Assembly (NCBI RefSeq): GCF_000332235.1
Contig: NZ_CM001775.1
Coordinates: 2,510,230 to 2,574,229 of the forward strand
From: Geminocystis herdmanii PCC 6308
GTDB lineage: Bacteria > Cyanobacteriota > Cyanobacteriia > Cyanobacteriales > Cyanobacteriaceae
Direction of reading: 5' to 3'
DNA: 64,000 bases
Made by a program: the position numbers and the translations under genes. How positions within the stretch are numbered: position 1 is the first letter of the stretch; every line of letters starts with the position of its first letter. Of this stretch, positions 61,469-61,927 are shown piece after piece. The notes under the pieces were generated by a model that made no database searches, was not told the origin of the DNA, and was given only the letters and a program-made list of their open reading frames with translations.

Positions 61469-61542
61469 CGGGATGTAGCGCAGCTTGGTAGCGCACTTCG
61501 TTCGGGACGAAGAAGCCGCAGGTTCAAATCCTGTCATCCCGA
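61469..61542 (+). tRNA. tRNA-Pro(CGG)
   Basis: Acceptor arms CGGGATG and CATCCCG pair perfectly, with discriminator A. D-arm GCGC/GCGC around AGCTTGGTA. Anticodon stem CTTCG/CGAAG encloses TTCGGGA, giving anticodon CGG (61503-61505). T-arm GCAGG-TTCAAAT-CCTGT. CCA is not encoded. Bases 61491-61507 are the 17-nt target of the homing spacer at 61874-61890, with GTA just before it as PAM. The gene stays intact beside the insertion. Confidence 0.95.
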
Positions 61543-61551
61543 TTTTGTTGT

Positions 61552-61616
61552 TGTACATTCAATAATTAAGTGCCGTTGTTCACACATTATTGTCGCTGTT
61601 TCACAAAATAATGTCG
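61552..61616. repeat. Transposon end: TGTACA plus three TnsB-type repeats
   Basis: Units begin at 61558 (TTCAATAATTAAGTGCCG), 61579 (TTCACACATTATTGTCG) and 61600 (TTCACAAAATAATGTCG), spaced by exactly 21 bp. The conserved core is TTCA...(A)TTA/ATAA(T)TGTCG. Spacing, TGTACA tip and TGTCG cores match the TnsB-binding ends of ShCAST-like elements. Confidence 0.8.
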
Positions 61617-61873
61617 TAGTTTTTACAGTTGCTCTTGCAAAAATTAATTTGTTTTTAATCTTATTTTTGTTACAGCACTTTTCGATTGGGTAAACCACAG
61701 TCAGATATTGTGGGCGTTGAGCACCCTACATTTATAATTTAATTTGTGGTTCATTAATTTGAAAATTGGTACAATTAAAACACATTTGTGTGTTTGAACT
61801 GATTAGTTGACCTAAATTGTCACTAACTGAAACAATATATTGAATCAAAATAAATAAATGTTTGCACTTACTT

Positions 61874-61927
61874 TCCCGAACGAAGTGCGCCTTTCAATCT
61901 TACTCACACTTAAATCATATCATTTTC
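61874..61927 (-). ncRNA. Delocalised homing crRNA (divergent repeat + 17-nt spacer)
   Basis: On the minus strand, bases 61927-61891 form a 37-nt repeat-like unit ending AGTAAGATTGAAAG. Directly after it, GCGCACTTCGTTCGGGA (61890-61874) matches 61491-61507 of tRNA-Pro without a mismatch; the next bases do not match. The target is preceded by GTA. AGTAAGATT is complementary over 9 bases to AATCTTACT in the tracrRNA. This is the layout of homing guides described for type V-K CASTs. Confidence 0.85.

Follow-up and report, generated by a model that had tools for sequence, protein, structure and literature searches.

A type V-K CAST homing guide beside the tRNA-Pro(CGG) gene of Geminocystis herdmanii PCC 6308, in an element without cas12k

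The 17-nt minus-strand stretch GCGCACTTCGTTCGGGA beside the tRNA-Pro(CGG) gene of Geminocystis herdmanii PCC 6308 belongs to a type V-K CAST as its anchor spacer (delocalized crRNA). Such guides have been described before; what is new is the state of the element that carries this one, which has lost its effector. We consider it very likely that the element is a defective type V-K CAST, with its tRNA-side end inside the window, that arrived by RNA-guided homing and whose guide is now a relic. By the window we mean the whole stretch of 64,000 nucleotides that was analyzed, C1:2510230-2574229 of a one-contig genome of 4,263,418 bp; positions given without a contig or locus name are window positions.

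The guide and its tRNA target

Type V-K anchor spacers, as they are described in PMC9938897, are 17 nt long, target tRNA sites next to a GTN PAM, and leave 46-82 nt between the PAM and the element end; the anchor spacer with its truncated repeat (R*) is also reviewed in PMC11406308 and PMC11656645. The window resembles the description in PMC9938897 in its 17-nt spacer, which follows a truncated repeat and sits between the array region and the transposon end, in a guide target that lies in a tRNA gene beside a GTN PAM, and in the 61 bp that separate the PAM from the TGTACA tip (starting at 61552), a distance inside the published range. The features concerned are:

61469-61542, plus strand: tRNA-Pro(CGG), the attachment-site gene (ARAGORN; Rfam RF00005, 67.2 bits)
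61488-61490, plus strand: GTA, which fits the GTN PAM of Cas12k as given in PMC9938897
61491-61507, plus strand: anchor protospacer within the tRNA gene, identical to the spacer at 17 of 17 positions
61547-61551, plus strand: left flanking 5-mer GTTGT, unrepeated at the right end (TATTA)
61552-61595, plus strand: transposon end adjoining the tRNA (the left end in the naming of PMC9938897), TGTACATTCAATAATTAAGTG..., with an inverted recurrence at C1:2582309-2582353
61874-61890, minus strand: 17-nt anchor (homing) spacer GCGCACTTCGTTCGGGA, identified by its match to the tRNA
61891-61904, minus strand: truncated repeat R*, AGTAAGATTGAAAG, directly before the spacer (read from the sequence; pairs with the tracrRNA 3' end)

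The preliminary description of this DNA had proposed that a type V-K CAST carries a homing guide here whose target is the neighboring tRNA-Pro(CGG) gene; we confirm that the guide observation is real. The 17 nt on the minus strand (61890-61874) are identical to tRNA bases 61491-61507, and these are the only two occurrences of GCGCACTTCGTTCGGGA in the genome (4,263,418 bp searched); GTA stands before the target, the spacer follows directly on the divergent repeat at 61904-61891, and the tip lies where it had been placed. A chance match had been called very unlikely, and the control agrees. From 94 TTGAAAG sites in 364 kb of the genome came five guide/protospacer pairs within the limit of 3 mismatches (having 0, 0, 1, 1, and 2), compared with four pairs, every one at 3 mismatches, from 2,364 sites of 30 permuted 7-mers. 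The broader claim of a V-K homing guide thus holds for the identity of the guide, its target, and the position of the tip, but the element around it is without cas12k, its tracrRNA is without the start, and the GTTGT duplication is absent.

In the Rfam search, the tRNA was the sole match at gathering score; a snoRNA match (E = 0.088), far under the gathering score, was dismissed as chance. Short tandem GAGAATGGAGAATT-type repeats occupy 61320-61410, between a helicase gene and the tRNA, and related stretches occur at many sites in the genome.

Ends, gene order, and the missing effector

Counted from the tip, 44 bases of the tRNA-side end recur inverted at C1:2582309-2582353 (87% identity), which by arithmetic gives an element of 10,573 bp that reaches beyond the end of the window to C1:2582353. 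Three open frames, of 561, 291, and 168 aa, precede the right end, all facing inward on the minus strand. The 561-aa frame has a Mu-transpos_C domain (TnsB) and the 291-aa frame TniB and AAA_22 domains (TnsC); the 168-aa frame has no Pfam or NCBIfam match, aligns with ORFs of other V-K loci at 50%-53% identity, and is read here as a putative TniQ. Apart from an hsdS cargo ORF, the remaining frames are an ATPase-like ORF, an hsdR split in two pieces, and a YgjP-like ORF. The V-K layout given in PMC9938897 runs from the tRNA through the end, R* with its 17-nt anchor spacer, the array, the tracrRNA, cas12k, and the cargo to tniQ-tnsC-tnsB, and the gene order of our element is the published one minus cas12k. 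No intact CRISPR array of 37-nt repeats was seen in the element; one degenerate repeat-like stretch is included among the features of this region:

62089-62105, minus strand: single degenerate stretch resembling an array repeat, GTTTAGTCGATTGAAAG (read from the sequence)
62222-62235, minus strand: tracrRNA anti-repeat AATCTTACTTCACA, complementary to R* (duplex energy)
62222-62515, minus strand: tracrRNA remnant without 5' stem and promoter region (homology and alignment)
62506-63378, plus strand: hsdS ORF, cargo, 5'-truncated (Methylase_S; residues 4-59 match profile positions 120-176 of 461)

With profile NF038191, which also gives a below-cut-off signal in 2 of 14 control genomes, a search of the whole genome found no cas12k in the element; its three matches lie at two other places. 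The gene at C1:26089-27894 has an internal TGA and that at C1:2978304-2980144 a frame break, so both remaining cas12k genes of the genome are broken. A genome of the same genus (G001) has an uninterrupted cas12k, the last 200 aa of which are 97% identical to the copy at C1:26089-27894. Among 60 relatives searched (own genome included), 19 gave a cas12k match (E up to 1e-20) and 14 a TnsB match (E up to 1e-60; best non-self identity 53%-54%), and no cas12k-bearing copy of the window element was met.

Part of the tracrRNA has gone too. Positions 62418-62515 match the tracrRNA beside cas12k at C1:27957-28053 (74%), and the homology stops at 62515. Our tracrRNA alignment holds 28 loci cut at the cas12k stop codon (24 distinct, with four pairs being the same DNA) and one second tracrRNA. 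A G-(C/T)-(G/A)-CC...TCA stretch in the 5' part of the tracrRNA is present in all 29 rows, and in 23 of the 28 cas12k-anchored loci it is preceded by a CCTTGA-type motif (CCTAGA in one), which we take to be the conserved promoter mentioned in PMC9938897. By alignment with the 28 cas12k-anchored loci, neither the stretch nor the motif is in the window, where hsdS sequence stands in their place, and hsdS itself starts at about profile position 120 of 461. The simplest account is that one deletion, with its junction near 62515, probably removed cas12k, the promoter region and 5' stem of the tracrRNA, and the start of hsdS.

What is left of the tracrRNA still pairs with the guide. The 28-nt R* region forms a duplex with the 3' end of its own tracrRNA at -17.1 kcal/mol, compared with a mean of -9.1 for 300 shuffles, and reaches -7.5 and -6.3 kcal/mol with the two other tracrRNAs tested. 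The R* of the C1:26089 element gives -17.0 with its own tracrRNA, -13.6 with the third, and -5.7 with that of the window, by a test that discriminates imperfectly (two array repeats reach -16.1 and -16.3 with another element's tracrRNA). Folded alone, R* plus spacer is nothing special (z -0.08), and a promoter scan returned 5 promoter-like sites where 3.8 were expected. Because the genome has no intact cas12k, the tracrRNA start is gone, and hsdR is split, we judge the element inactive and, going by its sequence, very probably unable to work as a homing system.

Related states have been reported. The Fig. 2 legend of PMC9938897 mentions 12 V-K CASTs with degenerated Cas12k that were omitted from the tree; ours is like these in having lost the effector within the same family, and unlike them, as they are described there, in that no trace of cas12k was found in it, yet tnsB, tnsC, tniQ, and the guide are kept. 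Arrayless CAST variants that keep a delocalized crRNA are mentioned as well (PMC11656645), and our element resembles them in keeping a homing guide with an array that appears lost or degenerate, but differs in being without cas12k too. Compared with the V-K CASTs presented in PMC9938897, it lacks cas12k and the start of the tracrRNA, and no intact array was seen in it.

Guides elsewhere in the genome and in other cyanobacteria

The guide scan, in which loci of at least 4 kb were examined, yielded 11 rows, 9 of them distinct, and the stretches of this genome that were read hold five V-K guides besides that of the window. A V-K element at tRNA-Leu(GAG) (L015:811-1053; C1:2980811-2981053), the guide of which matches at 16 of 17 positions, has two tracrRNA copies; the second joins R* and the anchor spacer via AATTCTC-TTT-GAGAATT, like a natural single-guide RNA, and 151 nt separate the tracrRNA core from the spacer there, versus 499-572 nt in the window and L013. 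In a relative (L076, G026), there is also a second tracrRNA core, 209 nt before the guide. The V-K locus L013:6089-8652 (C1:26089-28652) has CRISPR repeats as well as the TGA inside its cas12k, and its anchor spacer resembles tRNA-Ala; beside the end of this element, the 3' fragment of a tRNA-Ala alone remains (guide read by eye). Guides for tRNA-Phe (17/17; L051:17625-17738) and tRNA-Thr(GGT) (15/17; L052:16495-16610), each with a V-K end and with no cas12k or tns match in its 20-kb stretch, are solo guide relics. Finally, a 751-bp element (L050:7541-8291; C1:687541-688291) has two TGTACA ends, partly near-identical to those of the tRNA-Leu element, along with a tracrRNA 3' end, R*, and an anchor spacer (16/17) facing a tRNA-Arg-like fragment. 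It has no match to the CAST protein queries, and ARAGORN called no tRNA at the fragment, which was read by eye. Guides in relatives were found in G006, G037, G026, and G048, those of G026 and G048 beside cas12k.

The sequence TTGAAAG followed by GCGCACTTCGTTYGGGA occurs in 29 other records of an 84,980-species collection, all cyanobacteria by title and representing 28 organisms (one is present twice). In 27 of the 29, the fetched sequence includes the tRNA target and its GTA PAM (those of L104 and L107 do not), a count that says nothing on frequency because the records were selected by the guide. Sixteen records extend at least 3.5 kb upstream of the guide, and in these at least 500 aa of cas12k are covered in 9, 112-442 aa in 4, and none in 3, although the coverage may be underestimated because a single divergent cas12k query was used. 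In G006, which belongs to another genus of the family, the same spacer faces tRNA-Pro(CGG) (L070:17781-18051) with a different type of transposon end, and thus V-K elements of unlike kinds have this target in common; the 40 kb examined at that locus gave no match to cas12k or tns genes, and an intact cas12k is present elsewhere in G006. Many V-K elements of cyanobacteria use the tRNA-Pro(CGG) gene as their site, and it is not a rare one.

Competing accounts of the element

For ShCAST, a 5-bp target duplication is expected, and the preliminary description anticipated one of GTTGT. That expectation failed, in that the 5-mer beside the single matching right end found is TATTA. The lack of a downstream TGTACA end with GTTGT, named there as a point against the whole reading, is what we found genome-wide; the guide, the tip, and the transposase genes nevertheless stand. 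The sequence TGTACAGTTGT occurs twice in the genome, with transposon-end repeats beside neither occurrence. The difference between GTTGT and TATTA means that the two ends may not derive from one insertion. The flanking 5-mers are unequal in all three two-ended elements seen in the genome stretches read (window element included), so the missing duplication is not peculiar to this one. A clean empty site was not found in three genomes of the same genus (G003, G001, and G004), in which tRNA-Pro(CGG) follows the same helicase gene and the DNA beyond the tRNA is different in each. In G001 (L055, about 6465-6490), tRNA-Pro(CGG) is followed after 2 bp by a CAST-like tip, TGTACAGTGCCAAATTAAGTG, and the guide scan found no guide there.

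The unequal flanks would fit a history in which recombination brought together the ends of two separate insertions, so that the tRNA-Pro guide and the tns genes were never parts of one element. Consistent with this, the gene beside the right end, which we take to be psaK-like, has a presumed miaA-like gene as its neighbor in G003, whereas the present genome has its miaA-like match at C1:1106497-1107327, 1.5 Mb away. We nonetheless think such a recombination unlikely, given that no transposon end was found beside that miaA-like gene, that the two ends share 87% identity over 44 bases and differ from those seen at other V-K loci of the genome, and that everything between them is arranged as in a standard V-K element save for the missing cas12k. 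A match due to chance, or to a duplicated tRNA fragment unrelated to RNA-guided insertion, has a negligible probability in our view: duplicated tRNA fragments are common next to integrated elements, but this match starts right after the repeat, with a GTN PAM and the usual spacing, the 2,364 control sites gave nothing better than 3 mismatches, and the same guide faces the tRNA with a GTA PAM in 27 of 29 records (selected for the guide).

The element could also be a living, non-autonomous CAST that still has its own TnsB, TnsC, TniQ, and guide, with Cas12k and tracrRNA being supplied by another element, resident or transient. The open tnsB, tnsC, and tniQ-like frames speak for this and count against the relic reading, since a long-dead element need not keep them open. 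The perfect match of guide and target, the pairing that R* retains with its own anti-repeat, the 751-bp two-ended guide element without CAST query match elsewhere in the genome, and the cas12k-poor guide loci of other records point the same way. Against it, neither of the two other cas12k genes in the genome is intact, the duplexes of R* with the tracrRNAs of other elements are weak, the element's own tracrRNA has neither promoter region nor 5' stem, hsdR is split, and no second copy of the end region was found in the genome besides the element's own right end; altogether we rate this account as very unlikely.

With its effector gene gone, the defective V-K element looks like a stranded relic, in which two ends, the guide, the 3' part of the tracrRNA, and the open tnsB, tnsC, and tniQ-like frames are still to be found. 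If the published V-K mechanism applies, the Cas12k, tracrRNA, and truncated repeat-spacer RNA of an intact ancestor would have bound the GTA-flanked protospacer in tRNA-Pro(CGG), and TniQ, TnsC, and TnsB would then have inserted the element ~61 bp past the PAM. The single deletion near 62515 would later have taken cas12k together with the starts of the tracrRNA and hsdS, and at present the guide would do nothing, being kept as a record of the element's arrival.

An anchor guide can outlast its Cas12k, and guides can therefore mark past RNA-guided insertions where a search for Cas12k finds nothing. That V-K CASTs spawn non-autonomous derivatives (ends plus a private homing guide, with no Cas12k) that are moved in trans by the Cas12k of another element seems to us quite improbable. 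If it is true, guide-carrying transposons parasitize complete CASTs, with the window element and the 751-bp element at C1:687541-688291 as examples, and CASTs, by serving such cas12k-free elements in trans, would have parasites of their own.
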